A stretch of DNA of 64,000 nucleotides from NCBI RefSeq assembly GCF_002929535.1, contig NZ_PJJO01000061.1:1-64000 (forward strand). Reading direction: 5' to 3'. Position numbers and translations under genes: made by a program. This document shows positions 90 to 63,473 of this stretch, piece after piece (the stretch's first letter is position 1; each line of letters starts with the position of its first letter). This DNA is from Cryobacterium sp. Y11. GTDB lineage: Bacteria; Actinomycetota; Actinomycetes; Actinomycetales; Microbacteriaceae. Below the pieces are notes generated by a model that did not search any database, was not told where the DNA came from, and saw nothing but the letters and a program-made list of their open reading frames with translations.

Positions 90-1423
90 GGGCGAAGCGT
101 CGCGTGCACACCTGCAGGCAGCGGGACCGCGTCGATTCCGGCGAGATCTTTCAGGCCAGCTGCGGCCGCTCGCCACGACACGGCCGGCACGGTCTCATCG
201 GCGAGATCTTCGAAATCGCTCCACAGGCTGGCCTGATAGCGGCTGATGCGCAGGCCCGTCTCCCATTCTTGCAGTGCACGGGCTTCATTGATGAGCTCGT
301 GGAGCTGCTCGAATTCGGGCTGTTGCAGCGAGAGATAACTGTTGTCGACCAGTTTCAGGCGGGTCTGGCCCGTCGCGAGGGCCTTGAACAGTGGGCCGAA
401 CGGCACCGTGATGGCGCCGACCGTGACGATGACGCCGAGGTCGAACCAGTCGCGCTGGTCGGTTTCCACGGTGGTGATGACGAGGTGGGGCACTTCGGTG
501 CGCTCAAAGTTGTCGGGCAGTACCTCGGGAAAGTGCACCGATAAATCTGTGCTGGTGACGGTGACCGTGCACTGCAGGGCCGGATAGACGGTGCCGAGAA
601 ACTCGGCCGTGTCGGCTGGGGGAACGGTTGCCGCATCGAGTTGCGTGATCAGGTGACGCTGCTCGTCGCTGACCGGTCCGGCCATTGGCGCGAGTGTGAA
701 CACGGTCGGACTGCCGAAGCGCACGCTGTAGATCCCGTGGCCGGAGATGACCCCGGCGGCCTCGAGCGGGTGGTTTAAGCCGTCAATGTGTAGCCGGGCC
801 TGCAGGATAAGCGGGCCGGCGGCATCCGTTTGGGAGGCGTCGAGACTGATGCCGGCGAGCGAAGCGACCCGCACGATCACGTCTTTTTTGCTGCCGACGA
901 GACCGATGCCCAGCTGCTCTGCCTCGGCCAGCAGCGGCCAGAGCAACGGGCTGGTGAAGTTGTCGAGGTAGATCCAGTCGGTTTCCTGGCTCGTGTAGAC
1001 CTCGCGCACGGCCCGGTAGAGGGCGGCGAACTGCGAGATCCAGCGGTGATGCTCTGGATCGAGGTTGAACCGGTTCAGCTGAAAGGTGAGGTGGCTCCAG
1101 GTGACGTTGCTGCGCACCCAGTTGCCCTGCGCATTGTGAATGACCGGCCGCACACCGAGCCGGTATTCGCCGTGCCCGGCCACGAGCGTCTTCACCGGTT
1201 TGGCGGTCGGCCCCCGCCAGCGGTCGTTCGTGCGCGGAGTCTGCTCCCGCAACTCAAACTGCAGTCCCATCGGCACTTTCGGGCCTGTCGGAATCGGTCG
1301 CGGTTGCCCAAAATTGCCCATCCGTGGCAGAACGGATGCCGGCTGCTTGGGCGGCAGCACCAGCCGCTTCCAGGCCGGGGTGCCCTCGAGCCCGTTGGTC
1401 GGGGCATCCTCAGAATGCGACAT
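80..1423 (-). CDS. SNF2-family helicase, N-terminal fragment only (truncated)
   Basis: This 447-residue ORF resembles the region preceding the ATPase core in actinobacterial SNF2 helicases. It has the stretch around residues 33-130 with many conserved Arg, Trp and His, the phrase RWISQFAALYR, and near the end HATLRPY. In intact homologues LRPY is followed by Gln and then the helicase Walker A region. Here LRPYC is followed at once by TGA, and none of the three minus frames beyond it resembles a helicase. The whole ATPase is therefore missing. It is probably a pseudogene left by an insertion, deletion or rearrangement near 83-89; an assembly join is the alternative. It starts downstream of the oligopeptidase terminator and would have its own promoter. 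Confidence 0.6.
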   Translation of the reverse strand: MSHSEDAPTNGLEGTPAWKRLVLPPKQPASVLPRMGNFGQPRPIPTGPKVPMGLQFELREQTPRTNDRWRGPTAKPVKTLVAGHGEYRLGVRPVIHNAQGNWVRSNVTWSHLTFQLNRFNLDPEHHRWISQFAALYRAVREVYTSQETDWIYLDNFTSPLLWPLLAEAEQLGIGLVGSKKDVIVRVASLAGISLDASQTDAAGPLILQARLHIDGLNHPLEAAGVISGHGIYSVRFGSPTVFTLAPMAGPVSDEQRHLITQLDAATVPPADTAEFLGTVYPALQCTVTVTSTDLSVHFPEVLPDNFERTEVPHLVITTVETDQRDWFDLGVIVTVGAITVPFGPLFKALATGQTRLKLVDNSYLSLQQPEFEQLHELINEARALQEWETGLRISRYQASLWSDFEDLADETVPAVSWRAAAAGLKDLAGIDAVPLPAGVHATLRPYC

Positions 1424-1468
1424 TCCCCTATTTTCTCACGGTGTTGCCTCCGGTCGGAGCGCGTGAGG

Positions 1469-1513
1469 GGCGCACATCGACCTACAACCGACCTCGGAAG
1501 GTCGATGTGCGCT
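1469..1513 (-). terminator. hairpin downstream of oligopeptidase B
   Basis: Perfect 14-bp arms at 1470-1483 and 1499-1512 surround a 15-nt loop, with an outer wobble pair. It lies 30 bases past the stop of the minus-strand oligopeptidase and before the helicase fragment start. No clear U-run follows, as is common in actinobacterial terminators. Confidence 0.7.
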
Positions 1514-1542
1514 CCTTCACCTTGAAATGCGCGCCGGTTCGC

Positions 1543-3750
1543 TCAATCGGCGGCGTTCAGGCCGGCGGCGCCCAGCACCCAGGCGTAGTTGAACGCGCGT
1601 TCATGCCAGGCGCTGTACCGACCGGACACCCCGCCGTGGCCAGCCGACATTTCGGTCTTGAGCAGGGCATCCGCTCCCACCTCGCGCAGCTTCGCCACCC
1701 ACTTAGCCGGCTCGACGTAGAGCACGCGAGTATCGTTCAGGCTGGTCACGGCCAGAATCGACGGGTAAGTGACGGCTCGCACGTTTTCGACGGGGGAGTA
1801 AGACTTCATGTAGGCGTAGACCTCGGCGTCGTGCAGGGGATCGCCCCATTCGTCCCATTCGATCACGGTCAACGGCAGTGACGGATCCAGAATCGAGGTG
1901 AGCGCGTCGACGAACGGAACCTCGGCGAGAATGCCGGAGAACAGCTCGGGGGCGAGGTTGGCGACGGCGCCCATCAGTAGTCCGCCGGCGCTGCCGCCCT
2001 CGGCGACCAGCTGGGGCGGGGTGGTCAAGCCCGCGTCGATCAGGTGCCGGGCGCAGCTGACGAAGTCGGTGAAGGTGTTGCGTTTGGTGGTGGTTTTGCC
2101 CATTGAGTACCAGGTGCGGCCGAGTTCGCCGCCGCCGCGCACGTGCGCGATGGCGAAGATCATGCCGCGATCGAGCAGGCTGAGGCGGGCGATTCCGAAT
2201 CCGGGGTCGATGCTGTGTTCGTAGGAGCCGTAGCCGTAGAGCAGGGTCGGCGCCGGGGTGCCGGGCGTGACGAGGTCGCGGCGGTAGACCAGCGAGATCG
2301 GCACCCGCGTGCCGTCGGCGGCGGTGGCCCACTCCCGGCGCTGTTCGTAGAGCGCCGGGTCGTAGCCGCCGAGTACCGGCTGCTGCTTGAGCAGGCGTCG
2401 CTCACCGGTCGCCACGACGAGGTCGTAGACCGTTGACGGAGTGATAAAGCTCGTAAAGCCGAACCGAATGGTCGGCTGGGTCCACTCGGGGTTTCCGGCC
2501 GAGCCGACGGCGAACAATGGCTCGTCGAAGTCCAGCTCGGTCAGTCCGCTGGCGTCGTGCCGGTCGATGGCGAGGCGGGTAAGTCCGTCGCGGCGGTACT
2601 CCACGACGAGAAAGTCGGAGAAGGCGTCGACGCTTTCGAGACGGATCTGCGGGTCGTGCGGCAGCAGCATCCGCTTGGCGCCCTGCGGGTCGTGGGCTGC
2701 GACGCTGACCAGCTCGAAATTGACGGCGTTTCCGCCGTTGTGCACGATTAGCAGGCGGTCGTCACCGTCGATGATGGCGTGTTCGACGTCGTATTCCGTG
2801 TTGTCTTGCCGGGGCCAGACTACGGTGAAGTCGCCGGTCGGGTCGCTCGCGTCGAGTAGCCAGGACTCGGTCGTGACGCTGGAGCCGGCCTCGATCATAA
2901 GAAATTTGCGGCTGCGGGTAATGCCGACGCCCACCCAGAACCGTTCGTCGGGTTCGTGAAAGATGCTGGTATCAGCGTCTGGCGTGGTGCCGATTTCATG
3001 CCGCCACACGGTGTCCGGGCGCCAGGCGTCGTCGACGGTTGTGTAAAAAAGATAGCGTCCGCTCGGGTCGAACAGGGCGCCGGCGCTCGTGTTCTTGATG
3101 GTGTCTGGCAGATTTTCGCCGGTAGCAATGGTGCGCACACGAATCGTGTAGCGCTCATCGCCTTCGACGTCGACGGCGTAGAGCAGCTGGGTGCCGTCGT
3201 CGCTGAGGTCGAAGCTGCCGAGCGAGAAGAACTCGTGACCGGCCGCTTCGACGTTGTCGTCGAGCAGGATCTGCTCGCCGGGGAGGCCGGGCGCCGTGGC
3301 CGGGTTCGCGGAGGCAGACTGGTCGGCGCTTTCGAGGGGCGGTGCGGTCCCATCGTCGGCGGGCTTGATCAGCGGCGGGGTGGCGAGCACGGGCGCAGCC
3401 CAGTCGTCGGGGCCGCTGATCGGCGCGCGGCAGTGGATGCCATATTCCTGACCCTCGACGGTGCGGGTGTAGTACCAGTAGCTGCCGCGACGCACCGGAA
3501 CGCTGAGGTCGGTCTCCTGGGTACGGTTCTTGATCTCGTTGAAGATCTGCTGCCGGAGCGTTTCCTGATCGGCGGTGCGGGCATCCGTGTAGCTGTTTTC
3601 CGCCTCGAGGTGGGCGATGACCTCTGGACTGTCCTTGTCGCGGAGCCACTCATAATCGTCGATATAGACGTCGCCGTGGTGTTCGCGACGTTGCGGCTTC
3701 TTGGCGGCGGTGGGGGCGGTCAGGGGAGGTGTGATCGGGCCAGAGGTCAT
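1543..3750 (-). CDS. ptrB: oligopeptidase B, S9 prolyl oligopeptidase family
   Basis: The protein has 735 residues, the usual length for the S9A family. An N-terminal beta-propeller (about residues 60-440) is followed by an alpha/beta hydrolase domain. The catalytic triad is visible: Ser587 in GGSAGG, Asp673 in LNDTRV and His705 in SAGHGG. Family members cleave short peptides, usually after basic residues, in the cytosol. I chose the ATG at 3750 because the S9-type sequence (KKPQRREHHG, then DDYEWLRD) begins just after it; an open frame continues upstream to 3846 but does not look coding. A G-rich run directly abuts the ATG, too close for a normal ribosome site. It lies downstream of the hut operon in the same direction but is separated by a hairpin. 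Confidence 0.9.
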   Translation of the reverse strand: MTSGPITPPLTAPTAAKKPQRREHHGDVYIDDYEWLRDKDSPEVIAHLEAENSYTDARTADQETLRQQIFNEIKNRTQETDLSVPVRRGSYWYYTRTVEGQEYGIHCRAPISGPDDWAAPVLATPPLIKPADDGTAPPLESADQSASANPATAPGLPGEQILLDDNVEAAGHEFFSLGSFDLSDDGTQLLYAVDVEGDERYTIRVRTIATGENLPDTIKNTSAGALFDPSGRYLFYTTVDDAWRPDTVWRHEIGTTPDADTSIFHEPDERFWVGVGITRSRKFLMIEAGSSVTTESWLLDASDPTGDFTVVWPRQDNTEYDVEHAIIDGDDRLLIVHNGGNAVNFELVSVAAHDPQGAKRMLLPHDPQIRLESVDAFSDFLVVEYRRDGLTRLAIDRHDASGLTELDFDEPLFAVGSAGNPEWTQPTIRFGFTSFITPSTVYDLVVATGERRLLKQQPVLGGYDPALYEQRREWATAADGTRVPISLVYRRDLVTPGTPAPTLLYGYGSYEHSIDPGFGIARLSLLDRGMIFAIAHVRGGGELGRTWYSMGKTTTKRNTFTDFVSCARHLIDAGLTTPPQLVAEGGSAGGLLMGAVANLAPELFSGILAEVPFVDALTSILDPSLPLTVIEWDEWGDPLHDAEVYAYMKSYSPVENVRAVTYPSILAVTSLNDTRVLYVEPAKWVAKLREVGADALLKTEMSAGHGGVSGRYSAWHERAFNYAWVLGAAGLNAAD

Positions 3751-3832: not shown

Positions 3833-5014
3833 CGCACTCGCGGCACGGAATGGAACAGCGCGTGCCCCGTGGCGATAGACGGCGGCGGTGAGGGGGACTC
3901 CGGGGCGGTAGGCCAGGTGCGAGATCGATGGGGCGTTCAGTACCTGCAGGTCGGCCCGGCCGCCGACAACGAGACGCCCCAAGGCATCCGCTCCCTGATC
4001 GCGGTCGAGCGACATCGCCGCACCGCGGGTCGCGGCCCAGACGGCCTCGCCCACGGTCAGGCCCATTTGCAGCACGGCGGTCGCCACGCAGAACGGCATT
4101 GAGGTCGTGTAGGAGGTGCCCGGATTGCAGTTGGTGGCCAGGGCAATGGTCACGCCGGCGTCGAGCAGCTGCCGGGCCGGCGGAAAAGGCTGTCGGGTCG
4201 ACAGATCGCAGGCCGGCAGCAGGGTAGCGACCGTGGTCGATGCGGCCAGGGCGTCGATGTCGGTCGGCTTCAGATAGTTGCAGTGATCAACGCTGTGAGC
4301 GCCGAGTTCGGCGGCGAGCCGCACGCCACCGCTGAAGCCGAGCTGATTTCCGTGCAGGCGCAGCCCCAGGCCGGCGGCACGACCGGCGAGCAGTACCTCG
4401 CGGCATTCCTCCACGTCGAACGCGCCCTTCTCACAGAACGCATCGATGAACTGCACATACGGAAGCACCGCCGTGAGCATCGGCCCGGTCACCAAGTCGA
4501 GATAGTCGCGACGATCCAGCTCGGTAGGCACGATGTGGGCGCCCAGAAAGGTGACGACGTCGGCGACTTGTGCTGCTGCCCGAGCCGAACGAGCTTCGCT
4601 CTCGATGTCGAGCCCGTAACCGGTTTTGGTCTCGAGAAAGGTGGTGCCCTGGGTTTCAGCTTCGTGGCGGAGGTTCAGAGCCGTGGCCACGAGCTGCTTC
4701 TCGGTTGCGGCGCGAGTGGCGGCGACGGTCGTATTGATGCCGCCGGCGGCGTAGGCCTGCCCGGCCATGCGGGCTTCAAACTCCGCCGAGCGGTCGCCGC
4801 CAAAGACGAGGTGGGTGTGCGTGTCGACCCAGCCGGGCAGAACGGCGCGGCCGCCGACATCCGTTTGCCGATCAGCAGCGGGAGCCTGGTCGGCTGGGCC
4901 GATCCAGAGGATGCGGCCATCGCCGATCACGAGGGCCGCGTCGTGCCGGCGCTCGCCGGAATCATCGTGCGTCGTCAGCTCGCCAATGCCCGTCACCAGT
5001 TCAGTCGCAGTCAT
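3824..5014 (-). CDS. hutI: imidazolonepropionase
   Basis: This cytosolic enzyme of histidine degradation hydrolyses 4-imidazolone-5-propanoate to N-formimidoyl-L-glutamate. The 396-residue protein has the amidohydrolase-superfamily metal motif DTHTHLVFGG (His66 and His68), the substrate stretch ETKTGYGLD, and later LHGNQ and ATNCNPGTSYT, all typical of HutI. The start is the ATG at 5014, which overlaps the hutF stop as ATGA, indicating translational coupling. It is the last gene of the hutU-M20-hutF-hutI operon. Confidence 0.95.
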   Translation of the reverse strand: MTATELVTGIGELTTHDDSGERRHDAALVIGDGRILWIGPADQAPAADRQTDVGGRAVLPGWVDTHTHLVFGGDRSAEFEARMAGQAYAAGGINTTVAATRAATEKQLVATALNLRHEAETQGTTFLETKTGYGLDIESEARSARAAAQVADVVTFLGAHIVPTELDRRDYLDLVTGPMLTAVLPYVQFIDAFCEKGAFDVEECREVLLAGRAAGLGLRLHGNQLGFSGGVRLAAELGAHSVDHCNYLKPTDIDALAASTTVATLLPACDLSTRQPFPPARQLLDAGVTIALATNCNPGTSYTTSMPFCVATAVLQMGLTVGEAVWAATRGAAMSLDRDQGADALGRLVVGGRADLQVLNAPSISHLAYRPGVPLTAAVYRHGARAVPFRAASAGK

Positions 5015-6330
5015 TCGCCGAGCCTGCCGAGCGCCTCGGCCATCAGCGCCGCCGGTCGCGCGCCGCCCACCAGTTGACCGCACTCGGCCACGAGACGCCC
5101 GCCGACGATAACCCGCAGCACATCGGAGGCCGTCGCCGTCAGCGGCAGCTGCTCCGGATGAGACCCCGCCGTGCGCACGCTGGCCGCGTTGATCTCGACC
5201 AGATCGCACGGGTCGCCCGGCTGGAGCGAGTGCCGGCCCAGCCCGAGCGCGGCATAGCCGGCGGCCCCGGCTGCGGCCAGCAGGGCGGCCGGGGTGAATC
5301 GTCCGCGCTGCCGCGAGGCCAGCCGCTCACCCATTTCCAGGCCGCGCATCTCGAGGAACGGGTCGATCACGGCGTTCTGATCGGAGCCAAGAGCAATCGG
5401 GCAGCCCGACGAGGTCAACGCGAGCGCCGGACCGATGCCGTCGCCGAGGTCAGCCTCGGTGGTCGGGCACATCACGACGGTCACCCCGGCGTCGCCGAGC
5501 AGCGCCCGGTCGTTATCGCTCAGGTGTGTCGCGTGCACCACGCTTAGTCGCGGTGCGAGAGCGCCCAGCGAATCGAGCAGACCAGAGGGGGTCAGGCCAT
5601 ACGCGGCCAGGCATTCGACGTTCTCCTGCGGCTGCTCCGACAGGTGAATGTGCAGCGGAACCTCCGGCGGCAACCCGGCGAGAACGTCGCGCATCGCGTC
5701 GGGCGTGACGGCGCGCACCGAGTGCAGGGCCGCGCCGAGTGTCAACAAATCATCGCCGGCAAGCGCCGCACGCAGCGAGTGCCACCGAGCCAGCCAACCG
5801 GCGGCACTGCCATCGCTGAACGCTAGTTGCTGTGGCGCAAGCTCCCGCCCGATTCCGCCCTGCAGATACACCGTGTCGAGCAGCACTAAACGGATGCCGA
5901 CGGCCCGCGCCGCCGCCGCAAGCGCCAGTTCCATGGCGTGCGCGCTCTCATACGGCTCACCATTCTCGCGGTGATGCACGTAGTGAAACTCACCGACCGC
6001 CGTGTAACCGCTCACGAGCATCTCGGCAAACACCGCCGTCGCCAGTTCCTGATATTTCGCGGGATCGAGCTGCGCGGCCACCCGGTACATCCGCTCACGC
6101 CAGAGCCAAAAATCGCCGCCCTCCGCGTGGGTGTGACCGCGCAGGGCCCGGTGAAAGGCGTGCGAGTGGGCATTGCCGAAACCCGGCAGCACCGTTCCCA
6201 AACGGATGTCCGCAGCCTCGGCCGCGTGAACCTGAACCCGCGAGATGTCCCCCGCCACGTCAGCCTCCAGCCGCACCCCGGCAACGGTGACCCCGTCGAC
6301 CAGCAGGGTTTCGCACCAGAACGCCGTCAC
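5011..6330 (-). CDS. hutF: formimidoylglutamate deiminase
   Basis: It converts N-formimidoyl-L-glutamate to N-formyl-L-glutamate and ammonia, the step that sets the five-enzyme Hut route apart from the HutG-only route. The 439-residue amidohydrolase shows GNAHSHAFHRALRG (His55 and His57 as metal ligands), FHYVHH, IHLSEQ, VHATHLS and GSDQNAVID in the expected order. The GTG at 6330 overlaps the upstream M20 gene stop as GTGA, with a GAGGGA ribosome site 8-13 bases upstream. A longer open frame upstream is arginine-rich and antisense-like, so it was rejected. Confidence 0.94.
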   Translation of the reverse strand: MTAFWCETLLVDGVTVAGVRLEADVAGDISRVQVHAAEAADIRLGTVLPGFGNAHSHAFHRALRGHTHAEGGDFWLWRERMYRVAAQLDPAKYQELATAVFAEMLVSGYTAVGEFHYVHHRENGEPYESAHAMELALAAAARAVGIRLVLLDTVYLQGGIGRELAPQQLAFSDGSAAGWLARWHSLRAALAGDDLLTLGAALHSVRAVTPDAMRDVLAGLPPEVPLHIHLSEQPQENVECLAAYGLTPSGLLDSLGALAPRLSVVHATHLSDNDRALLGDAGVTVVMCPTTEADLGDGIGPALALTSSGCPIALGSDQNAVIDPFLEMRGLEMGERLASRQRGRFTPAALLAAAGAAGYAALGLGRHSLQPGDPCDLVEINAASVRTAGSHPEQLPLTATASDVLRVIVGGRLVAECGQLVGGARPAALMAEALGRLGE

Positions 6331-7514
6331 AGGAGGTCCCTCAGTAGTAGTACCAGTGCGTCGATGCCGGCCACGCAGTCTGCGGCCTCGGCGAATTCCT
6401 CCGGCGCGTGCGAGATTCCGGTGGGGTTGCGCACGAACAGCATCGCGCTCGGTACGTGGGCGGCGAGCACGCCGGCGTCGTGGCCGGCCCCGGTCGATAG
6501 CTGCGGCACCTGGCCGAGGGCCTGCGCACAACGTTCGCGCAGGCCGGGGTGAAAGTGCACGGCGCCGGCCCAGGATTCCTCGGTGAGGGTGGCGAAGCAT
6601 CCGTTCTGCTCGGCAGCCTGCTGGGTGCTGGCCGCAATGGACGCCACGAGCAGGCGAGTTTCTTCGTTGGTCTCGGCGCGGGCGTCGAGCCACGCAGCCA
6701 CCGAACTGGCAATAACGTTGGTGCCACCGGGGATGGCTTCGATGCGACCGATGGTTGCCCGGGATCCCGGGAGTAGGCGGGCGGCGGTCTGCACACCGAC
6801 GATCGCCTGGGCGGTGGCGACCATCGGGTCGCGGCGCCCGGTCATGGTGGTCGTGCCGGCATGATTGCCCTGGCCGGTGACCGTAAGGCGCCAGCGGCCG
6901 TGCGCGAGAATCGACGATGCCACGGCCACCGGCTGGTCGAGGTCGATGAGGCCACGGCCCTGTTCAACGTGCAGCTCGATGAACAGGCCGACGCGGGCGA
7001 GAGCGTCGGGGTCGGCGCCGAGGTGGGCCGGGTTCAGGCCTACTTTTCGGGCGGCCTCGGCCAGAGTCACGCCATCGCGGTCTTGGAGCGCGCGGGACTT
7101 ATCGGCGTCGATCGCGCCGGTGAGCAGCCGCGAGCCGAGGCAGGCGACGCCGAAGCGGGAGCCCTCTTCTTCGGCGCACATCAGCACCGCGCACGGCCGG
7201 GTCGGAACGAACCCGCTCGCCTGCAGCCGCGCGATCGCGTCGAGCGAGGAGACCACGCCGAGCGGCCCGTCGTAGGCGCCGCCGCCGGGAACGGAGTCGA
7301 GATGGCTGCCGGTGACGACGGCGTCCATTCCCGGCTGGCCCCACCAAGCCCAGAGGTTGCCGTTCCGGTCGGTTTCGACCTGCAGATCCAGGCGTTCCGC
7401 GCGCTCGATAAACCAGGAGCGCAGCTCGAGGTCGGCCGACTGCCAGAGGTGGCGCGAATAGCCGCCACGGCGGTCGCGGCCGACATCGGCGATCTCGGAA
7501 AGGCCGGCGAGCAT
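6327..7514 (-). CDS. M20 amidohydrolase (allantoate/N-carbamoyl amino acid amidohydrolase type) inside the hut operon
   Basis: The protein has 395 residues of the M20/M28 di-metal amidohydrolase family. Metal-site motifs are GSHLDSVPGGGAYDGPLG (His71 and Asp82), CAEEEGSRFG (Glu115-117) and ELHVEQG; a dimerisation domain and a C-terminal GAGHDAG metal site follow. Family members hydrolyse allantoate or N-carbamoyl amino acids. The gene lies between hutU and hutF with 2-nt and overlapping junctions, while hutG is absent. I infer it may deformylate N-formylglutamate to glutamate, but substrate cannot be read from sequence. The start at 7514 is preceded by GGAGG, which lies within the last codons of hutU. 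Confidence 0.85.
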   Translation of the reverse strand: MLAGLSEIADVGRDRRGGYSRHLWQSADLELRSWFIERAERLDLQVETDRNGNLWAWWGQPGMDAVVTGSHLDSVPGGGAYDGPLGVVSSLDAIARLQASGFVPTRPCAVLMCAEEEGSRFGVACLGSRLLTGAIDADKSRALQDRDGVTLAEAARKVGLNPAHLGADPDALARVGLFIELHVEQGRGLIDLDQPVAVASSILAHGRWRLTVTGQGNHAGTTTMTGRRDPMVATAQAIVGVQTAARLLPGSRATIGRIEAIPGGTNVIASSVAAWLDARAETNEETRLLVASIAASTQQAAEQNGCFATLTEESWAGAVHFHPGLRERCAQALGQVPQLSTGAGHDAGVLAAHVPSAMLFVRNPTGISHAPEEFAEAADCVAGIDALVLLLRDLL

Positions 7515-9184: not shown

Positions 9185-9547
9185 TGTGATCTCCCTCGAT
9201 TACAGACTTAAGCGGATGCTGCGGCGCGATCCAGCGCGCGGCTTTCGGCGAGCAAAACCGTCACCAGGTGGCACTGCCATTATCGCGTCCGTGGGGTTGA
9301 ACGGTGAGCGGGCCGTGATTACCCTCAGTGCATGTGCCGAAACATTCACACCCTGAGCAACTTTGAGCCAGCACGCGCCCAAGAACCGCGAAATTGAGGC
9401 CGACAAGGCGAAGGCACGCTCCGCGAAACGCTTCGTCGCAGCCTGATTCGACCGGCCGTTCAAAACTTCGGAGATTGGCGAGTGATAGCCGATTGTGGGT
9501 GCGGTGAGCTGAAATCTTCGCAGTTTCGTACCGGGCCTGGATTCCTT
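9185..9547. other. intergenic region upstream of hutU; no gene recognised
   Basis: About 360 bases lie between the hutU start and the end of the next minus-strand gene. Open frames here are short and lack family resemblance. The part next to hutU must hold the hut operon promoter but no clear -35/-10 pair stands out. One copy of the iterated word discussed in the findings lies at 9211-9219. Confidence 0.4.
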
Positions 9548-10028: not shown

Positions 10029-10525
10029 TTAGAAATCGGCCCAGGCGCTGGGCAGCGGATGCTCCACCCGCTCTGGCCCCGCGTGCTCGCTGCGCCTCTC
10101 GGCGCGATGCACCAGAATCGCCGCCACGATTCCGGCCGCGACGGCCAACGCGACGCTGAAACCGACAATGAGGAACGCACAGCTGCCCACTCCGATCGCC
10201 CACCGCCACGTCGCAAATACGATCCCCAGAATGAGCACGCCGCCGGCTGCACCAAACGCTGCGGCGGTCGCGCGCAAACCGGACGACTTTGCTAGGTGCC
10301 GATCGACGAAGGCGACCAGAATGATACCGTCGAGAACAGCAGCCACGCTGACCGCGAGTCCACGCTGCCGTAGACCAGAACCGCCCGAATGAAGTCTCCG
10401 ATTGTCTGACCGGTTCGCGCCTGGGGATTACCGGTAATGGTCGCCAACCCGAACACGACGCCACCCAGCAGAAACGCGACCCTCGACGCCATTAGTGCGG
10501 TGCGCCAATACCGGTGAATCATCAT
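10029..10525 (-). pseudogene. frameshifted paralogue of the adjacent membrane protein
   Basis: One frame (ATG at 10525 after AAGGTGGGAG) encodes MMIHRYWR and runs to VLVYGSVD. A second frame continues the match from LAVSVAAVLDG through VAFVDRHL to the stop at 10029. Aligning with the intact neighbour places a single missing base near 10359-10360, in a codon that is Gly in the paralogue. All downstream hydrophobic segments are preserved in the second frame, so the break is recent or a sequencing error. Restored, the protein would be about 165 residues with four membrane helices. Confidence 0.65.
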
Positions 10526-29861: not shown

Positions 29862-32443
<2,582 letters not shown>

Positions 32444-36189: not shown

Positions 36190-36227
36190 AAGCGCCAATT
36201 CGCACCCTGAGGCAACGGCATCCGCTC

Positions 36228-46819: not shown

Positions 46820-46838
46820 TACATTACGAGAGGGACGG

Positions 46839-48433: not shown

Positions 48434-48485
48434 ACGCTCGATGTGCAGTTGTGCAATAGTCAGCGATTTTTTTGCTAGGAGCGCA

Positions 48486-48584: not shown

Positions 48585-48606
48585 ACAGTTTCGCGAGGAG
48601 AATTAC

Positions 48607-52403: not shown

Positions 52404-53762
52404 ATGCAACCAACCATCGTCAAAGCCCAGAAGGCCCAGGACTTTCTGGCACTCGTTCCCCAGCTGCTCGGTTTTCTGCCCGAGACCAGCGCGGTCCTCG
52501 TCGCGTTTCGCGGCAACCGCACCTGCGGCGCGTTGCGCTTCAACCTGCCAGAAGACGGTGCATCGCAGAAGGTGTACAAACGCATTGCAACGACGCTGGC
52601 CGGGATGCTGTGTAAAATTCCTGGCGTCGACGCTGTTGTACCCGTCATGTATTCCGACGAATCCTTCGTCGGAGTCCGTGGAATTCCGGGTGAGCGTTTT
52701 GCGGATATTTTGAATCGACGGCTCGAACTCAGCGGATTTCTGTTGCGTGACTCGCTGTGTGTGGCAGCGGATGCCTGGGGCAGCTACCTCGACCCGGAGT
52801 GCCCGGCTGGCGGGCATCCGCTCAGTGATATTGCTGCGTCACCGGTGAACGAGCAGCCGGCGACGTTTCCCGAACGCCCGCTGGGTACGCTGCAAAACGG
52901 CGCGGATCCTGTCGGCGTCAACCTGGCGTCCAAGGAACGCCTGGCCCGGATCTATCGGCGGTACCGCCACCTGCTCGCTCGGGCCGAGAATGCTCCGACG
53001 TTGTTTCCGACCCTCGGTGTGTTGCTCGACCCGGTAGCGATCGCCGAGGCCGCATTGACCTGGAGCACTCCGCCGACCGAAGATGATGCGGCAGCGCTGC
53101 TGGTGCTCGTCCAATCACCGCCGAATCGCGACCAGATCATGGTGCAATTTGCCTTTGGACGCGAGGAGGGTGTGCGTGCCCAGGAGATCAACCAGCATTA
53201 CGCTCTGCTCCAACACGAAACCGGTCGAAGCCTCGACGATATCGTCACCGATGAGATCAACTTGGGTGATCCCGGTGCGCAGCACACCAGCGACATCATG
53301 ATTGGCCTCCGACGAGACAGACCAGATGTCGACCGTATTCGCATTGCCATCACCCTGCTGCGCACCGTGGTCGCGATGGCTCCGCGGTCGGCCAGGCCGG
53401 CGCCGCTCTGCATGCTGGCCTGGCTGTCCTGGGCGCTCGGCAGCGGTTCGGTGGCCGGATTCTTCGTTGACCAGGCACTCGCCATCGACTCGCGGTACAG
53501 CATGGCGAACCTACTTCAGCTGCTGTTCGCCTCGGGACACCTGCCGGAGTGGGCGTTCGCGGTGCCGCGCAGCGATGACGATGAATCAGCGGGCGATGAG
53601 GAGCTTCGGTTCGAGGCTGACGACGCTGTTGATGGTTTCGAGGAGGACGACTATTTCCTCGACGTGGACGACGGTTTTAACGACGAGAACGACGAGAACG
53701 ACGACGACGATCTAGAAGGCGACCTAGACGACGACGAAGACGAGCGCGCCGTGGGTGGTTGA
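52404..53762 (+). CDS. DUF4192 protein with acidic C-terminal tail
   Basis: The 452-residue protein is typical of the actinobacterial DUF4192 family, opening with AQDFLALVPQLLGFLPETSAVLVAF. A second conserved block is LCMLAWLSWALGSGSVAGFFVDQALAIDSRYSMANLL. The last 70 residues are almost entirely Asp and Glu, longer than usual. It is cytosolic with no known function; family position is independent. It is followed by a strong terminator. Confidence 0.85.
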   Translation: MQPTIVKAQKAQDFLALVPQLLGFLPETSAVLVAFRGNRTCGALRFNLPEDGASQKVYKRIATTLAGMLCKIPGVDAVVPVMYSDESFVGVRGIPGERFADILNRRLELSGFLLRDSLCVAADAWGSYLDPECPAGGHPLSDIAASPVNEQPATFPERPLGTLQNGADPVGVNLASKERLARIYRRYRHLLARAENAPTLFPTLGVLLDPVAIAEAALTWSTPPTEDDAAALLVLVQSPPNRDQIMVQFAFGREEGVRAQEINQHYALLQHETGRSLDDIVTDEINLGDPGAQHTSDIMIGLRRDRPDVDRIRIAITLLRTVVAMAPRSARPAPLCMLAWLSWALGSGSVAGFFVDQALAIDSRYSMANLLQLLFASGHLPEWAFAVPRSDDDESAGDEELRFEADDAVDGFEEDDYFLDVDDGFNDENDENDDDDLEGDLDDDEDERAVGG

Positions 53763-53778: not shown

Positions 53779-53822
53779 CGCGACCCGCCCCGGCATCCGT
53801 TTGGATGCAGGGGCGGGTCGCG
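53779..53822. terminator. bidirectional terminator with an inverted iterated word at its tip
   Basis: Outer arms of 13 bp (53779-53791, 53810-53822) are followed by a G-A mismatch and inner arms GCATCC/GGATGC (53793-53798, 53803-53808) around a GTTT loop. It lies between convergent genes. The tip is made from the word GCATCCGTT plus an inverted partial copy, as uptake sequences do in Neisseria and Haemophilus terminators. Confidence 0.8.
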
Positions 53823-55871: not shown

Positions 55872-57308
55872 ATGGGCGCCCCCGAACTACGCAACTTCGT
55901 CAATGGCCGCTACGCCGAGTCGATCGGGGCAGAGCGATTCGACCTGGTCGACCCCGCGACGGAGGTGGTCTACGGCAGTAGTCCGGTGTCGAACCGGGCA
56001 GATGTCGATGCGGCCTACCGGGCTGCGGCATCCGCTTTCGAAATTTGGGGTGAGACGACCCCGGCTGTTCGGCAGCTGGCACTGTTTCGCATAGCGGATG
56101 CGATCGAGGCGCGCGCCGAGGAATTTGCCGATGCCGAGTCGCTCGACACCGGCAAACCGCGCTCCACCCTGGTCGAGGACGAGATATTGCTCTCGGTCGA
56201 TCAGATTCGGTTCTTCGCGGGAGCCGCTCGCAACCTCGAGGGCCGCGCGGCAGGCGAGTATATGACCGACCACACCTCCTTCATTCGCCGCGAGCCAATC
56301 GGCGTCGTCGGTCAGGTCACACCGTGGAACTACCCGTTGAACATGGCGGTCTGGAAGTTCGCTCCAGCGCTCGCCGCGGGAAACACGACCGTGCTCAAGC
56401 CCTCAGACACCACCCCGAGTGCGACGCTGCTGCTGGCCGAGGTTGCGGCGGAATTTCTGCCGGCCGGCGTGCTCAACGTGATCACCGGCGATCGCTCGAC
56501 CGGCGCCGCCATGATCGACCACAAGATTCCACAGCTCGTGTCGATCACCGGTTCGGTGCGGGCCGGAATGGCCGTGGCCGCGGCAGCCTCCCACGACCTC
56601 AAGCGCGTGCACCTGGAACTCGGCGGCAAGGCACCGGTGATTGTGTTCGACGATGCCGATATCGACCTCGCCGTGGCCGGCATTGTCGCGGCGGGCTTCT
56701 TTAACGCCGGTCAGGACTGCACGGCGGCGACCAGGCTGCTCGTGCAAGCCGGAATTCACGACGAATTCGTCGCCGCGCTCGCCGCCTATGCCCGGGACAA
56801 CGCGCGCACCGGAGCGCCTAGTGAGGCAGGAATCCTGTTCGGACCGGTCAACAACGCCAACCAGCTTGCCCAGGTCACCGGTTTCATTGACCGGCTACCC
56901 GACCACGCTGTGCTCAGTCTCGGCGGCGATCGCATCGGCATGACCGGCTATTTTCACGAGGCAACCATCGTGAGTGGGCTGTTGCAGACCGATGAGGCGG
57001 TACAACAGGAGATCTTCGGCCCGGTGATGACCGTGCAGCGGTTCACCGATGAGGCGGAGGCGCTGCGCTGGGCCAACGACGTGCAATATGGGCTCGCGTC
57101 GTCGGTGTGGACCCGCGATCACGGGCGGGCGATGCGTTTCGCCAAACACCTCGACTTCGGCTGCGTCTGGATCAACACGCACATTCCGATCGTTGCCGAG
57201 ATGCCGCACGGTGGTTTCAAGCACTCCGGTTACGGCAAGGACCTCTCGATGTACGGCTTCGAGGACTACACCCGGATCAAGCACGTGATGAGTTATATCG
57301 GACACTAG
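55872..57308 (+). CDS. aldehyde dehydrogenase, probably gamma-aminobutyraldehyde dehydrogenase
   Basis: The 478-residue NAD(P)-dependent enzyme has Asn153 in PWNYPL, Glu249 in LELGGKAP, Cys283 in [10 protein letters not shown] and the C-terminal [12 protein letters not shown] typical of aminobutyraldehyde dehydrogenases. It would oxidise 4-aminobutanal, formed from putrescine by the divergent aminotransferase, to GABA. I chose the ATG at 55872 behind a -10 element; a GTG at 55827 would add 15 residues. Confidence 0.85.
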
Positions 57309-57414: not shown

Positions 57415-58218
57415 GTGACCCAGATTGGTCAAGGTTCGACCGGTTTTCGCGTTGAACTACCCAGCGTCGCAACGACGTTAACGCTGGCTTGGGCTGCGTT
57501 GACCGATGTTGGCCATCGCCGCGAGGTCAATGAAGATAGTCTGCTTGCCGCACCGCCGCTATTTGCTGTTGCTGACGGCATGGGCGGGCACTCGGCCGGA
57601 GACGTTGCCAGCGCCGCCGTGGTGACCAGGCTCGCCGAACTTTCTGGAACGCTCGTGGCCGAGGCTGGATCGATTGATCGGGCGCTCGTGCTCGCGGTTG
57701 AGGACATGGCGCAGGGTGTCGGAGTGACCGACCAGGGCACCGGAACCACGGTGACCGGTGTGGCCTTGGCTCTCGTCTCGGATGCCGTCAGCTGGATCGT
57801 CTACAACATCGGTGATTCCCGGGTCTACCAGTTGACCGGAGGCGTACTCGAGCAGGTCACCACCGATCACTCGGTCGTGCAGGAACTTGTCGACGCCGGT
57901 CGCATCACGCGCGAAGAAGCGGATGTGCACCCACACGGCAACATCATCACCCGCGCGGTCGGCTTTCACGAACCGCCCATTCCCGACTATCGCATTCTGC
58001 CTATTCAGGCCGGGATGCGCATCCTGGTCTGCTCCGACGGGCTTACCAAGGAACTAACGTCCTACGGTATCCGTCATTTTCTGCTCGAAAAGAAGCTGGC
58101 AGCGGATGCCGTCGCCGCAATGGTCGAGGCGGCCCTCGAAAACGGTGGTCGTGACAACGTCACCGCGATCGTCGTCGACGTGCTGGCGGTCGACCCCTAC
58201 GAGGCGCCAGAAGCCTGA
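57415..58218 (+). CDS. PP2C-family protein serine/threonine phosphatase
   Basis: The 267-residue protein has the metal-binding motifs of PP2C phosphatases: DVGHRREVNEDSLL, VADGMGGHSAGD, IGDSRVYQL, CSDGLTKEL and GRDNVTAIV. It would remove phosphate from Ser or Thr of target proteins, countering PknB-type kinases, none of which is in the window. GTG at 57415 is preceded by GGAAGG at the right distance; an upstream frame is not coding-like. A -10-like TATTAT lies at 57338-57343. An FHA protein and EccC-like ATPase follow downstream. Confidence 0.93.
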   Translation: MTQIGQGSTGFRVELPSVATTLTLAWAALTDVGHRREVNEDSLLAAPPLFAVADGMGGHSAGDVASAAVVTRLAELSGTLVAEAGSIDRALVLAVEDMAQGVGVTDQGTGTTVTGVALALVSDAVSWIVYNIGDSRVYQLTGGVLEQVTTDHSVVQELVDAGRITREEADVHPHGNIITRAVGFHEPPIPDYRILPIQAGMRILVCSDGLTKELTSYGIRHFLLEKKLAADAVAAMVEAALENGGRDNVTAIVVDVLAVDPYEAPEA

Positions 58219-59315: not shown

Positions 59316-62300
59316 GTGTCCACCGTCGAAGAGCCCCTCACGTTGCCGCCGACGCCGAGCGCGCCGCAGCCCGCCGCTTTTCCGCTACTGGCGACGGTGG
59401 CGCCCTTGGTCGCCGCGGGTTTGATTTGGCTGATCACGGGTTCGGCGTTCGCGTTGATCTTCGCCGTGCTGAGTCCTCTCATCGCGGTGGCGAGTCTGTT
59501 CGACTCGAAGCACTCCGGCCGCAAGGGGCGAATTGCCGATGCGGCGTCACAGATCGAGGCCATAACCGTGCTTCGATCAGCGATCGCTGAACGCCAAGCC
59601 CGTTGGCGCGATGCTGCCTGGCAGCACACTCCGTCGGCCCGCAACATTGTGCGTGGCCTGGCCGCGGCCGCTCGTTGGCGACAAGTAGATGCAACGCTGG
59701 TCACCCTGGGCACCGGCCCAGCCGCCAGCGGCATCAGACTCGGTGGAGCCACCGGTCCGAACGAGTACCGCGAATTGAGGGAGCGGGCCGCGACCGTCAG
59801 CGACGCGCCCATCGTTGTAGACGTGGCCACGGGGCTTGGCATCGTCGGCCCCGAGCCGCTTTCGGCAGCGTTGGCCCGGGCGGTGCTCGTGCAACTGTGC
59901 TTCGCCCTGTCACCCCACGACGTGGGGCTCAAGGTCGATGCTCCCGGTTGGGAGTGGGCAGCACACCTCCCACACGCCAACGTGTCAGCGGCAAGCCGGC
60001 TCATCGTGCTGAGCGAGACGGCAGCCGTGGCACTGCCGCGCACAGCTGGCGCGCCGCAACCCGGCCCCACGCGGCTGTTCATCGCCGTAGCCACGCGCCT
60101 GGAAGACCTTCCCCCCGGGTGCGGAACCGTCGTACGGGTGGGTGGCCCCGGGCGAGCACACGTTGTTCGCTCGCCGAACCGTGCGCCGCCGATAGAGTTT
60201 TGCCCGGAACTGCTGGCTCGGGCCGAGGCCGCCGACTTCGCCGTGGCGCTGGCCGGGCAAGCACGAGCGGCCGGGCTTCTCGCCGCGGCCGGAACGATTC
60301 CGTCGAGCCCGACTCTGCGGGAACTGCTCGCCGCCGACACGTCATCGTTCAGCACGGCACCGTCGAGCGTGGCCGGCCGGGCTCCTTCCGAACTCTCGTG
60401 CCCGATCGGAGTTGGCTGCGATGGGCCGGTGCGCATCGATCTGGTGCAGTCCGGACCACACGCCGTCGTTGGCGGCACAACGGGCAGCGGCAAGAGCGAG
60501 CTCCTGACGACCTGGGTGGCCTCCCTGGCGGCGACTTACTCGCCCGATCAGCTGAACTTTCTGCTCGTCGACTTCAAGGGCGGCGCCGCGTTGCAGCCAC
60601 TCGGGCGCCTGCCGCACTGTGTCGGCCTGATCACCGACCTCGACTCACATACGGCGGCCCGTGCCTTGGCGAGTCTGGGGGCCGAGCTTCGTTACCGCGA
60701 GCGGATGCTGAGCGCAGCTGGTGCGCGGGATCTGACCGACGTTCGCCTGGTGCATCCGCTGCCCCGGCTGGTCATCGTCGTGGATGAATTCGCGACCATG
60801 CTTGGGGCCTTCCCCGAGCTGCACGCTCTGTTCGTCGACATTGCCGCGCGTGGCCGGTCACTCGGGGTGCACCTAATTTTGTGCACTCAACGGCCGGCCG
60901 GGGTGGTGCGCGATGCCCTCCTGGCCAACTGCAGCCTGCGCCTATCGCTGCGGGTGAACAATCGCGCCGACAGCCAGGCGGTGATCGGAACGGACGCCGC
61001 GGCCGCGCTGGCACCGAATCAGCCCGGGCGGTGCGTGGTCGCCACCGAGATGAACGAACCGATGCTCTGCCAGGTAGCTTCGACCGGGGAAGCCGACATT
61101 GCTTACATCGCGGAGGCTTCCGCGTTATCGACACCCTCTGGTGGCCCCGCGCGGCGGCCGTGGCTGGATGCGCTGCCGCAGCTGGTGACCGCGACCGATC
61201 TGCGCGCGGTCGATCAATTAGGTGCACGAGCAGAGGAGGCCCCTGCGCTGGGCTACCGCCTCGGATTGCTCGACGAACCGGAGCGTCAGCGCTACCGCGT
61301 GTTCGCCTACGAACCCCAAACCGATGGGCACCTGCTCGTCGTCGGCGGAGCCGGCTCCGGCAAGTCCACGCTGCTGCATACCCTCGCCCGGGTGATTTCC
61401 GGCAGCGCGGTCGAGCAGCGCGTCGAGGTTGACCACATCAGCGGCGACATTGAGATGGTCTGGGACGCCCTGGAACGGGTCTGCACCGCGATTGAAACCG
61501 GAACTCAGACGGCCTCAGCGCCACGACTGCTGTTGTTTGACGACTTCGACTCGGTCTGTGCCCGTTGGCACCCTGACCATCGCCTGGCCGCGGTCGACAT
61601 GCTCACCGGGCTGTTGCGTGACGGACCGGCCGCCGGGGTGCACATCGTCGTCGCCGTGCAACGACACACCAGCGTGATCCCCGGCCTGGCAGCCCTCTGC
61701 CAGAGCACGCTGCTGCTGAAATTGCCCAGCGTGCAGGACCACCTTGCTGCCGGAGGGCTCTCAACCGGCTATAACCCGGCACTGCCACCAGGCGGGGGAG
61801 TGTGGCGCACTCTCCGCGTGCAACTGCTCGCGCCGGACGCCGCGCTGCCCGCTCAGCCCGATTCGATGCCCATAGCTTTCCCTACGCGACTTCCCACGGC
61901 GCTCCCCGCCGCGCTCCCCACGGCGGGACCGCTCCTGATCGTGTCCTCGTCACCGGCGCGAACGGCCGCACGCCTGCGCGCTGCCCTAGCGCTCCCGGTG
62001 ATCGAGCTGGCGGCAACGAGTGGGCCGGCGGCATCCGCTCTGCAGATCACTGTCGACGGGAGTCAAACGGATGCTCACGGCCAGCTGATCGTCGTCGGTG
62101 ACTCCGACACCTGGCAGACGAACTGGACGATGCTGGCGCGGCTACACAGCAGCCACGCCAGCATTGTCTTCGATCGGTGCAGTCTCTCGGACTTTCGGTT
62201 GATCAGTCACCGGCGTGAATTGCCGCCACCGCTTGCACCCGGGCGCGGCCGGGTGTGGGTATTGCATCCTGACGGGGAGGTGACGCGCGCGGTCCTGCCG

Positions 62301-62321
62301 GAAACGGCCGATCAGCACTGA
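59316..62321 (+). CDS. EccC/FtsK-SpoIIIE-like membrane ATPase with two P-loop domains
   Basis: The 1001-residue protein has two N-terminal helices (about 25-60), a linker, and two FtsK/SpoIIIE-type ATPase domains. The first has Walker A GGTTGSGKSEL near residue 387, LLVDFKGGAALQPL, Walker B LVIVVDEFATM and HLILCTQRPAGVV. The second has GGAGSGKSTL near residue 676 and LLLFDDFDSV. A C-terminal 130 residues lack a Walker A and may be a decayed third domain. The plan resembles EccC of type VII secretion, but no WXG100 substrate or EccB/D/E gene is visible. Start GTG at 59316. Confidence 0.9.
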   Translation: MSTVEEPLTLPPTPSAPQPAAFPLLATVAPLVAAGLIWLITGSAFALIFAVLSPLIAVASLFDSKHSGRKGRIADAASQIEAITVLRSAIAERQARWRDAAWQHTPSARNIVRGLAAAARWRQVDATLVTLGTGPAASGIRLGGATGPNEYRELRERAATVSDAPIVVDVATGLGIVGPEPLSAALARAVLVQLCFALSPHDVGLKVDAPGWEWAAHLPHANVSAASRLIVLSETAAVALPRTAGAPQPGPTRLFIAVATRLEDLPPGCGTVVRVGGPGRAHVVRSPNRAPPIEFCPELLARAEAADFAVALAGQARAAGLLAAAGTIPSSPTLRELLAADTSSFSTAPSSVAGRAPSELSCPIGVGCDGPVRIDLVQSGPHAVVGGTTGSGKSELLTTWVASLAATYSPDQLNFLLVDFKGGAALQPLGRLPHCVGLITDLDSHTAARALASLGAELRYRERMLSAAGARDLTDVRLVHPLPRLVIVVDEFATMLGAFPELHALFVDIAARGRSLGVHLILCTQRPAGVVRDALLANCSLRLSLRVNNRADSQAVIGTDAAAALAPNQPGRCVVATEMNEPMLCQVASTGEADIAYIAEASALSTPSGGPARRPWLDALPQLVTATDLRAVDQLGARAEEAPALGYRLGLLDEPERQRYRVFAYEPQTDGHLLVVGGAGSGKSTLLHTLARVISGSAVEQRVEVDHISGDIEMVWDALERVCTAIETGTQTASAPRLLLFDDFDSVCARWHPDHRLAAVDMLTGLLRDGPAAGVHIVVAVQRHTSVIPGLAALCQSTLLLKLPSVQDHLAAGGLSTGYNPALPPGGGVWRTLRVQLLAPDAALPAQPDSMPIAFPTRLPTALPAALPTAGPLLIVSSSPARTAARLRAALALPVIELAATSGPAASALQITVDGSQTDAHGQLIVVGDSDTWQTNWTMLARLHSSHASIVFDRCSLSDFRLISHRRELPPPLAPGRGRVWVLHPDGEVTRAVLPETADQH

Positions 62322-62360
62322 CGCGAGATCAGCACTGAGGCGAGATCAGCACTGACGCGA
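62310..62360. repeat. 17-bp tandem repeat spanning both convergent stop codons
   Basis: Three units of GATCAGCACTGASGCGA (62310-62326, 62327-62343, 62344-62360) plus a partial fourth. The ATPase stop (62319-62321) lies in unit 1 and the alanine dehydrogenase stop (62346-62348) in unit 3, so each protein ends in repeat-encoded residues. Confidence 0.85.
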
Positions 62361-63473
62361 GTTCAGCACCTCCGCGAGTGGACGGTGTCTCAGGCCATGG
62401 GCGATCGCCACGGGCGCGCTGATCAGGTGCCCGCCGAAGACGTTGAGGCCGAGAGCGAGCGAGGGATCCGCTCGCAGCGCGTTCACCCAGCCAAGCGTTG
62501 CGAGAGCCCGAATGTAGGGCAGCGTCGCGTTGGTCAGCGCGTAGGTCGAGGTGTGCGGCACAGCACCTGGCATGTTTGCAACGCAGTAGAACAACGATCG
62601 ATGCACAGTGAACGTGGGGTCGGCGTGCGTGGTCGGGTGGGTGCCTTCGAAGCATCCGCCCTGGTCAACAGCGATATCCACCAGCACACTGCCCGGTTTC
62701 ATTCGTGACACCAACTCGTTGCTGACCAGCTTCGGAGCCTTCGCCCCCGGAATTAGCACCGAACCGATGACCATATCGGCCTCCGATACGGCCTTGTCAA
62801 TTTCGAAGCTGTTCGAGGCGATGGTCTTGACCCGGCCGAAGTGCAGGGAGTCGATCTCGCGCAGCCGAAACAGATTGGTGTCGAGCACGGTGACCTCTGC
62901 GCCGAGTCCGAGCGACACCTGCATTGCGGCGGTGCCAGCGACGCCGCCGCCGAGAACAGCGATCTTGGCCGGATGGGTGCCGGGTACGCCGGGTACCAGC
63001 AGACCGAGGCCACCGTTCGGTTTGAGCATGGCATTAGCGCCCACGATCGGTGCCAGTCGACCGGCGACCTCACTCATCGGCGCCAACAGGGGCAGGGACC
63101 GCGACGGCAGCTGCACCGTCTCGTAGGCGATCGCGGTGACCCCACTGGCGAGCAGGGCCCGGGTCAGTTCGGGTTCCGCTGCGAGGTGCAGGTACGTGAA
63201 CAGCACCAGCCCGGCGCGAAAGTAGCCGTATTCGCTCGACACCGGCTCCTTCACCTTCAGCAACAGATCAGCGGATGCCCACACGCTCGCGGCGTCCGGC
63301 AGAATCGTGGCTCCGGCTGTTGCATACTGCTCGTCGCTGATCGACGAGCCTTCCCCTGCACCGGCCTGCACGAGAACCTCGTGACCGTGGCCGACCAGGT
63401 CGTGCACCCCGGCGGGAGTGATCGCGACCCGAAACTCATTGTTCTTGATCTCGGTGGGAACTGCGATCTTCAT
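62346..63473 (-). CDS. ald: alanine dehydrogenase
   Basis: It interconverts alanine with pyruvate and ammonia using NAD. The 375-residue protein has the N-terminal KIAVPTEIKNNEFRVAITP signature, the nucleotide-binding AVLGGGVAGTAAMQVSLGLGAEVTVLD, and MSEVAGRLAP with catalytic residues nearby. Start ATG at 63473 is preceded by GAGGAG. Only the last few residues are unusual, since they arise from a tandem repeat. It is divergent from the PotD-like gene. Confidence 0.95.
   Translation of the reverse strand: MKIAVPTEIKNNEFRVAITPAGVHDLVGHGHEVLVQAGAGEGSSISDEQYATAGATILPDAASVWASADLLLKVKEPVSSEYGYFRAGLVLFTYLHLAAEPELTRALLASGVTAIAYETVQLPSRSLPLLAPMSEVAGRLAPIVGANAMLKPNGGLGLLVPGVPGTHPAKIAVLGGGVAGTAAMQVSLGLGAEVTVLDTNLFRLREIDSLHFGRVKTIASNSFEIDKAVSEADMVIGSVLIPGAKAPKLVSNELVSRMKPGSVLVDIAVDQGGCFEGTHPTTHADPTFTVHRSLFYCVANMPGAVPHTSTYALTNATLPYIRALATLGWVNALRADPSLALGLNVFGGHLISAPVAIAHGLRHRPLAEVLNSRQC

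Follow-up and report, generated by a model that had tools for sequence, protein, structure and literature searches.

Why should a single nine-base word, GCATCCGYT, recur dozens of times in the first 64 kb of contig NZ_PJJO01000061.1 of Cryobacterium sp. Y11 (Microbacteriaceae, Actinomycetota), the stretch that we call the window? The original prediction, made from the letters of this DNA, held that the word itself is under selection, and offered as candidate roles a bias in DNA uptake or recombination, a binding site for an abundant chromosome-organising protein, and a mutational bias driven by methylation or repair. In our opinion, it is nearly certain that GCATCCGYT is a signal at the level of DNA. 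Probably much of the Microbacteriaceae share a DNA uptake sequence, of which GCATCCGYT is the dialect in Cryobacterium. Uptake bias is the best fit among the roles proposed, mutational or repair bias turns out to be unlikely, and the chromosome-organising protein remains the main rival.

Abundance of the word and independence from codon usage

The window contains 40 exact copies of GCATCCGYT, 22 on the plus and 18 on the minus strand, while 100 shuffles that preserve dinucleotides give 2.07 +/- 1.53 copies and never more than 6. The enrichment had been seen correctly, although the earlier count (37 copies, 20 plus and 17 minus, against one or two expected) was slightly low. The top-scoring 9-mer of the window is AGCGGATGC, the CT form of the word. 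Indeed the enrichment extends well beyond the window: in the assembly (4,028,303 bases in 61 contigs) the word occurs 2,052 times, 1,026 on each strand, or once per 1.96 kb, against 109 copies of the reversed word, which served as the control.

Base-by-base analysis covers 444 kb of the 4.03 Mb genome, the remainder being covered by word counts alone; intergenic copies and near-misses were counted in these 444 kb, and genic copies and flanking bases in a sample of 404 kb (the window and 17 stretches of 20 kb), which contains 241 copies. In the latter the base 5' of GCATCCG is G in 55% of cases and the two bases 3' are mostly Y and T, which gives an extended form G-GCATCCG-YT around a core CATCC; the flanks of GCATCCG carry about 0.1 bit per base or less.

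A codon-shuffled control, which the original prediction had proposed as a check, makes the word stand out. The 329 called genes contain 176 copies, and 100 synonymous-codon shuffles, which do not preserve codon pairs, give 15.4 +/- 3.6 with a maximum of 25. These genes, of at least 100 codons each, make up 339 kb of the 404 kb sample (window included) and were called with a home-made greedy caller that uses third-position G+C. A copy number above both chance and codon expectation is a property that GCATCCGYT shares with uptake sequences. As for the reading frames, 60 genic copies read GCA TCC GYT, 60 read RCG GAT GC on the opposite strand, and 56 fall in the remaining four frames; the favoured two encode Ala-Ser-Ala/Val and x-Ala/Thr-Asp-Ala. 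The earlier statement that the word is locked to one frame was therefore too strong, since copies occur in all six. It was right that GCA is not a favoured alanine codon (11% of Ala codons), and the view that the DNA word itself is selected is supported by the genome-wide count, by the codon control and by conservation at orthologous sites.

Placement of the word

In the 444 kb sample 131 of 267 copies lie on the plus strand, and 18 genome stretches show no strand heterogeneity (chi-square 15.4, 18 degrees of freedom, p 0.64). Thus the orientations are balanced and the word is not a replication-polar mark, just as had been predicted; equal use of the two strands without replication polarity is also what characterizes uptake sequences.

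Intergenic DNA is about twice as dense in the word as genes are (54 copies in 50 kb against 176 in 339 kb, the two samples differing slightly; p 1e-5). For this count we took gaps of 20-1500 bases between genes of at least 70 codons. Convergent gaps are the richest (17 copies in 9.7 kb, 1.75 per kb), tandem gaps follow (30 copies in 26.5 kb, 1.13 per kb), and divergent gaps (7 copies in 13.9 kb, 0.50 per kb) stand beside coding DNA with its 0.52 per kb; the difference between convergent and divergent gaps has a p of 0.006. With our home-made gene calls, the genome of Y11 itself thus has the enrichment at convergent gene ends known from uptake sequences. Within the window the gene calls leave exactly three copies between genes, the same three that had been named as intergenic from the outset: GCATCCGCT at 9211..9219 on the minus strand, GCATCCGCT at 36218..36226 on the plus strand and GCATCCGTT at 53793..53801 on the plus strand.

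Close pairs are mostly inverted in our sample. At distances of up to 40 bases, it contains 15 pairs of GCATCCG in minus-plus order and 8 in plus-minus order against about 3.2 expected for each, and a single same-strand pair against about 6.4 expected; in one relative (G193) there are 11 minus-plus pairs against about one expected. Perfect hairpins with a gap of 4 bases are found at 30446-30467, inside the rho frame, and in an intergenic region of another stretch (L016). Passages of PMC1852404 describe hairpin pairs of the Neisseria uptake word as most frequent in tail-to-tail regions.

Conservation and near-misses

We aligned the regions around pilC from 33 named Cryobacterium loci and two stretches of Y11. 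In pairwise counts, which share sites and ancestry, the word survives better than random 7-mers do in every identity band from 70% upwards: 35% against 16% at 70-75% identity, 43% against 21% at 75-80%, and 66% against 32% at 80-85%. At 65-70% identity the 9-mer is retained in 4 of 181 cases, and the 7-mer core in 15% against 9% for random 7-mers. When the two sequences are 70-85% identical, the core differs by one base at 9% of word sites (random 7-mers, 32%) and by three bases at 22% (random 7-mers, 14%). Words are thus mostly either intact or far from intact, as would be expected if near-misses were repaired quickly or if words were gained and lost in tracts. It is an odd bimodality, unlike ordinary decay by point mutation, that lost or gained words tend to have three core bases changed rather than one.

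Near-misses within a single genome were also counted. Summed over the 444 kb, near-misses of CATCC show no excess (133 against about 171 expected), with some variation among single variants (T at the second position, 10 against 3.3 expected). Changes to the G at either end of GCATCCG do exceed expectation, with 93 against 19 for the first base and 48 against 12 for the last.

Spread and dialects among relatives

The family (160 genomes), order (297) and phylum (396) sets used here are drawn samples, and 69 of 77 named loci were used, eight being left out because they were short or had no genus name. Among the named loci, the PilC copies of Y11 are nearest to those of Cryobacterium psychrotolerans (87%) and C. 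levicorallinum (90%); another genome of the same genus (G227) has a PilC identical to that of Cryobacterium gelidum.

In the order set the 9-mer exceeds its control in 22 of 23 genomes of the family, G069 being the exception, at 76-554 copies per Mb. In the other 274 genomes, as read from the table, it stays at or below about 50 per Mb (highest in G290), a few being above their own control. The phylum set gives the same picture for GGCATCCG, with 480-950 per Mb in five of six family genomes (about 95 in G069) and no more than about 180 per Mb in the other 390 (highest in G743, again as read from the table). Across the 160 family genomes GGCATCCG exceeds its reversed control at least 3-fold in 106, at least 2-fold in 132, and stays below 1.5-fold of it in 17; the largest count is 4,093 (G054) and the largest density 4,041 copies in 3.9 Mb (G351).

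Codon shuffles single out related words in several genera. These z values should be read against a background that is not low, with unrelated words reaching z 8.3 in unenriched samples. The top word is CATCCGCT both in our sample (z 26.8) and in the named Cryobacterium loci (z 33.5), followed by CATCCGTT. It is GGCATCCG or CGGCATCC in G193, G038, G357, G381 and the named Microbacterium loci (z 10.1-16.1), with CGACATCC also among the top words of G381, and CGCATCCG in Agrococcus (z 9.6). Within Cryobacterium, MP_M3, cryoconiti and cheniae have GCATCCGT (z 9.5), and five species with few 9-mers, grouped by low copy number and not by a tree, have only a weak, shorter word (z 7.1). Leifsonia stays within the background (z 6.6), and five genomes of other families in the order have no word above z 8.3 in 36-72 kb of genes each. 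Two further words, CGAGCACG and CGAGCAGC, reach z of about 5-13 in several genera (CGAGCAGC 12.7 in G193), perhaps as a codon-pair effect, and it is they that define the background here. In the sample of G280 (g5) and in L087, L089, L091 and L100 the palindrome CACCGGTG is commoner than codon shuffles predict (z 7.2 and 5.3).

Two groups of genomes that are poor in GGCATCCG have another word in its place. The genus g128 carries GCGCCTCCT, which was counted as AGGAGGCGC: 1,612 copies in G401 and 1,079 in G330 against 162 and 283 of the reversed word, a 10-fold and a 3.8-fold enrichment. This dialect rests on genome-wide counts, with codon-shuffle z values (up to 7.9) no higher than background. 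Smaller excesses of AGGAGGCGC are found in G349 (522 against 325), G303 (151 against 43), G345 (34 against 8) and G388 (31 against 9). The other replacement, GGATCCTGC, occurs 624, 839 and 476 times in three g97 genomes and 833 times in G342 (g140), against 2-169 in others. Its basis is these whole-genome counts together with a codon-shuffle z of 12.6 for GATCCTGC in g140; a sample of 60 kb from g97 gives a z of 4.9, no higher than for other words there. Since the reversed GGATCCTGC contains CTAG, which depresses that control, other genomes are the better yardstick. In both replacements GGCATCCG itself is hardly enriched (1.2-1.4-fold in g128, 1.4-2.0-fold in the three g97 genomes and G342). 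As written, GGCATCCG, GCGCCTCCT and GGATCCTGC have TCC in common. Relatives of Y11 therefore do have dialects, as expected of an uptake sequence; passages of PMC3630211 list eight dialects around a CTG core in Neisseriaceae.

For two further words the outcome differed. In G401 the idea that AGGAGGCG is a Shine-Dalgarno artefact was rejected: of its 76 copies, 4 precede a called gene on the same strand by up to 40 bases, and 52 are intragenic, in all six frames. In G412 the word CGATCCRC, suggested by a Markov model, does not stand out by codon shuffles and was dropped.

Genes for DNA uptake

Indeed the host has genes for taking up DNA, as an uptake sequence would need. In Y11 comEA (with HHH_3 and SLBB domains) and comEC are adjacent on contig C35. 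A tad-like cluster on C52, beside a gene that by eye resembles topA, comprises a T2SSE ATPase, a membrane protein that matches T2SSF in two stretches, a DUF4244 protein, one that is TadE-like, and another small frame that has no Pfam match. We take DUF4244 as a Flp-like pilin, which by eye resembles the Flp pilin of Micrococcus luteus. Two similar clusters for a classical type IV pilus (L031 and L032, genes mostly named by eye) lie about 36 kb apart on C59, one of them adjoining rpoC; a genome of the same genus (G125) has three PilC relatives.

Of the 160 family genomes 158 have ComEC, 157 have ComEA (with 111 passing the curated cut-off), 155 have DUF4244, and 81 have a relative of PilC from the classical type IV pilus. 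Being near-universal, ComEA, ComEC and the Flp-like pilin permit uptake but are uninformative as correlates of the word, and were dropped in that capacity.

Passages of PMC4322843 report that in the actinobacterium M. luteus both tad clusters, one of which has a TadB/TadC fusion, are required for transformation. Natural transformation in two Microbacteriaceae, Rhodoluna lacicola and Aurantimicrobium photophilum, is described in part of PMC11577799, and recent gene flow in 55 of 95 Cryobacterium genomes in part of PMC12943682.

The hypothesis of an uptake sequence

In our opinion the reading of GCATCCGYT as an uptake sequence fits best because the word is dense, asymmetric and neutral to strand, has an excess at convergent gene ends, and has genus dialects. 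We infer both that the word biases uptake and what kind of protein would read it. In natural transformation, double-stranded DNA that bears the word would be preferred by a surface receptor on ComEA or on a pilus, the latter of the Flp/Tad kind or, in some members, a classical type IV pilus. ComEA and ComEC would then import one strand, and recombination with the chromosome would spread and repair words, so that the DNA of kin stays rich in them. If the receptor changed, the word would follow, and dialects would arise.

A close parallel is the DNA uptake sequence of Neisseriaceae, which is read by the minor pilin ComP. Common to both cases are a word of 9-10 bases in about 2,000 copies per genome and, according to passages of PMC3630211 and PMC1852404, copies at convergent ends, hairpin pairs (here clearly in excess in our sample and G193), genus dialects and naturally transforming relatives. 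However, here the host is a Gram-positive actinobacterium, the word is unrelated and has few near-misses, the role in uptake is putative, and a classical type IV pilus was not found in some strongly enriched genomes. The uptake signal sequence of Pasteurellaceae is also a 9-base word, on both strands and partly intergenic, but it too is unrelated to ours, which has no A+T-rich flanking extension and fewer near-misses. With the Flp/Tad-ComEA-ComEC system of M. luteus, Y11 has in common the T2SSE ATPase, the T2SSF protein, the DUF4244 pilin, the TadE-like protein, comEA and comEC; the term 'uptake sequence' does not occur in PMC4322843, which describes that system.

Certain observations weigh against this hypothesis. 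A clear excess of inverted pairs is seen in two of seven samples: the named Cryobacterium loci have 5 minus-plus and 4 plus-minus pairs against about 2.8 for each, and 4 same-strand pairs against twice that expectation, and no clear excess is seen in G038, G357, G381 and G280, where counts are small. The genes linked to Com and Tad, near-universal in the family as they are, do not track the word. PilC does so weakly, with a median ratio of 7.2 where it is present against 3.8 where it is absent among genomes larger than 2.3 Mb (p 0.02, uncorrected for relatedness). Moreover, ten of the 79 genomes that have no PilC relative exceed a ratio of 10; not all of these are complete, though G021 and G038 each consist of one contig, and because of these ten the classical type IV pilus is not supported as a required reader. 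Small genomes are sparse in GGCATCCG: below 2 Mb the median is 45 per Mb against 276 in larger genomes, and a 3-fold excess is reached by 10 of 27 against 96 of 133. Rhodoluna lacicola and Aurantimicrobium photophilum both have small genomes. Then, G280 (g5), despite a 14-fold enrichment in the whole genome, has a z of 7.3 in 126 kb of genes, which is within the background, and no convincing word was found in g143 (G412) or g107 (G388). In G388 itself GGCATCCG occurs 75 times against 120 for the reversed word, and two congeners are enriched 2.2- and 2.4-fold, so a recent loss of the word is possible. Finally, near-misses of the 7-base core are few (274 against 202 expected, with the excess in the first and last bases), whereas for the Pasteurellaceae uptake word a passage of PMC1939737 gives 947 one-offs against 86.

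Alternative explanations

The most serious alternative, though in our opinion an unlikely one, is that GCATCCGYT is bound by some abundant protein of the nucleoid, or one that organises the chromosome, with a specificity that has drifted between genera. The wide spread of the word, its presence on both strands, the conservation of its sites, the intergenic excess and the inverted pairs in the genome of Y11 would all suit such a protein. Known chromosome-organiser sites, however, are usually palindromic or polar, and this word is asymmetric, mostly single and free of strand polarity. Terminators would account for the richness of convergent relative to divergent ends better than a general binder does. 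For the word to be replaced in g128 and g97/g140, moreover, a very large number of sites would have had to adapt to a new specificity, and this without the drive from recombination that comes with uptake.

A Chi-type signal, one that modulates an end-resecting nuclease, seems to us rather improbable. Like Chi, the word is short and over-represented every few kb, and the reverse complement of its CT form starts with AGCGG, which serves AddAB of Bacillus subtilis as its Chi word. Yet the AGCGG half is absent from the TT form and from the other dialects, the word has no orientation relative to replication, and a Chi role offers no reason for the excess at convergent ends. Given also that RecC is found in none of the 160 family genomes (AddAB and AdnAB were not searched), a Chi site of the RecBCD type is disfavoured, and we discarded it on account of the missing polarity and the missing RecC.

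Still less probable is a methylation mark or the target of some regulator. GCATC and GGATG, both recognition words of type IIS enzymes, do lie within the word, but restriction selects against its own sites and not for them; 176 of 241 copies are genic, and no intergenic class is poorer in the word than divergent promoter regions.

That codon usage, codon pairs or a mutational or repair bias produced the word as a by-product we regard as very improbable: 120 of the 176 genic copies do fall in two frames and the shuffles leave codon pairs free to vary, but against this stand the result of those shuffles, an intergenic density that exceeds the genic one, the lack of excess in CATCC near-misses, the other words in genera of the same family, and one Microbacterium phage, of another host genus, with no 9-mer and 6 copies of GGCATCCG in 46 kb. 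It is the codon control, the intolerance of the CATCC core and the different words of related genera that make a mutational or repair bias unlikely.

Implications of the hypothesis

Among the papers listed by searches of open-licence literature, which leaves out most subscription journals and all preprints, there is no account of GCATCCGYT or of uptake sequences in Actinomycetota, and this is weak evidence of absence; in four papers there that mention DNA uptake sequences, GCATCCG stands in primers (three papers) or in a table of over-represented words (one). The abstracts of PMC1939737 and PMC7811141 describe uptake words for Pasteurellaceae and Neisseriaceae. We lean, by a modest measure, towards the view that much of the Microbacteriaceae share the first Gram-positive uptake-sequence system, a code for recognizing self that arose independently of those two, with a Flp/Tad or ComEA reader instead of a minor pilin of the ComP type. 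Its dialects would number at least three (GGCATCCG-type, GCGCCTCCT and GGATCCTGC) and would largely exclude one another.

Self-specific DNA uptake is a clear case of bacteria choosing their recombination partners. If the uptake hypothesis is correct, an independent origin in so large an actinobacterial family would show that such codes arise repeatedly, and exclusive dialects could limit gene flow from one genus to another. The many genera with natural dialects would lend themselves to tests of drive, receptor change and species barriers. A practical rule for transforming Microbacteriaceae that are hard to engineer would also suggest itself, namely to put the right word on the DNA. Should the word instead be a chromosome-organising site, a dense chromosome code with switching dialects would be surprising too.

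Distribution of the copies in the window

All 40 copies in the window were located by exact match. Apart from the intergenic ones given above and the hairpin arms given below, GCATCCGTT stands on the plus strand at 822..830, 6597..6605, 22455..22463, 24155..24163, 26870..26878 and 41244..41252, and on the minus strand at 1331..1339, 5889..5897, 50121..50129 and 62066..62074. The form GCATCCGCT is found on the plus strand at 1667..1675, 2667..2675, 3984..3992, 19173..19181, 21668..21676, 28459..28467, 32022..32030, 51471..51479, 56028..56036, 60752..60760 and 62031..62039, and on the minus strand at 10054..10062, 12460..12468, 20294..20302, 24021..24029, 24980..24988, 35490..35498, 56093..56101, 58101..58109, 60700..60708 and 63270..63278. 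Two inverted pairs of GCATCCGCT have their left arms on the minus strand at 14518..14526 and 52766..52774 and the corresponding right arms on the plus strand at 14547..14555 and 52814..52822.

The word had been described as over-represented across the whole window, which holds for the enrichment but not for an even spread. The largest word-free stretch runs from 41,244 to 50,121, and ATP synthase genes, named by eye, take up about half of its length, as if constrained genes excluded the word. Low word density alone is therefore no sign of foreign DNA. Elsewhere in the assembly the first 20 kb of contig C22 (L021) have one copy and those sampled from C24 (L020) five, against 8-21 in the other 20 kb stretches; these poor stretches may stem from acquired DNA, from a plasmid or from contamination, which is reported at 2.2%.

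Two long frames of the window contain several words each. The rho gene, an 860-codon frame at 29862-32444 on the plus strand, has a Rho_N domain near its start, then about 430 residues, then the RNA-binding domain. It contains three words, two of them forming the hairpin noted above, with GCATCCGTT at 30446..30454 (minus) as left arm and at 30459..30467 (plus) as right arm. The 1,001-codon frame at 59316-62321 on the plus strand contains four words; it has an FtsK/SpoIIIE domain with further AAA-type matches, and resembles an EccC-like secretion ATPase.

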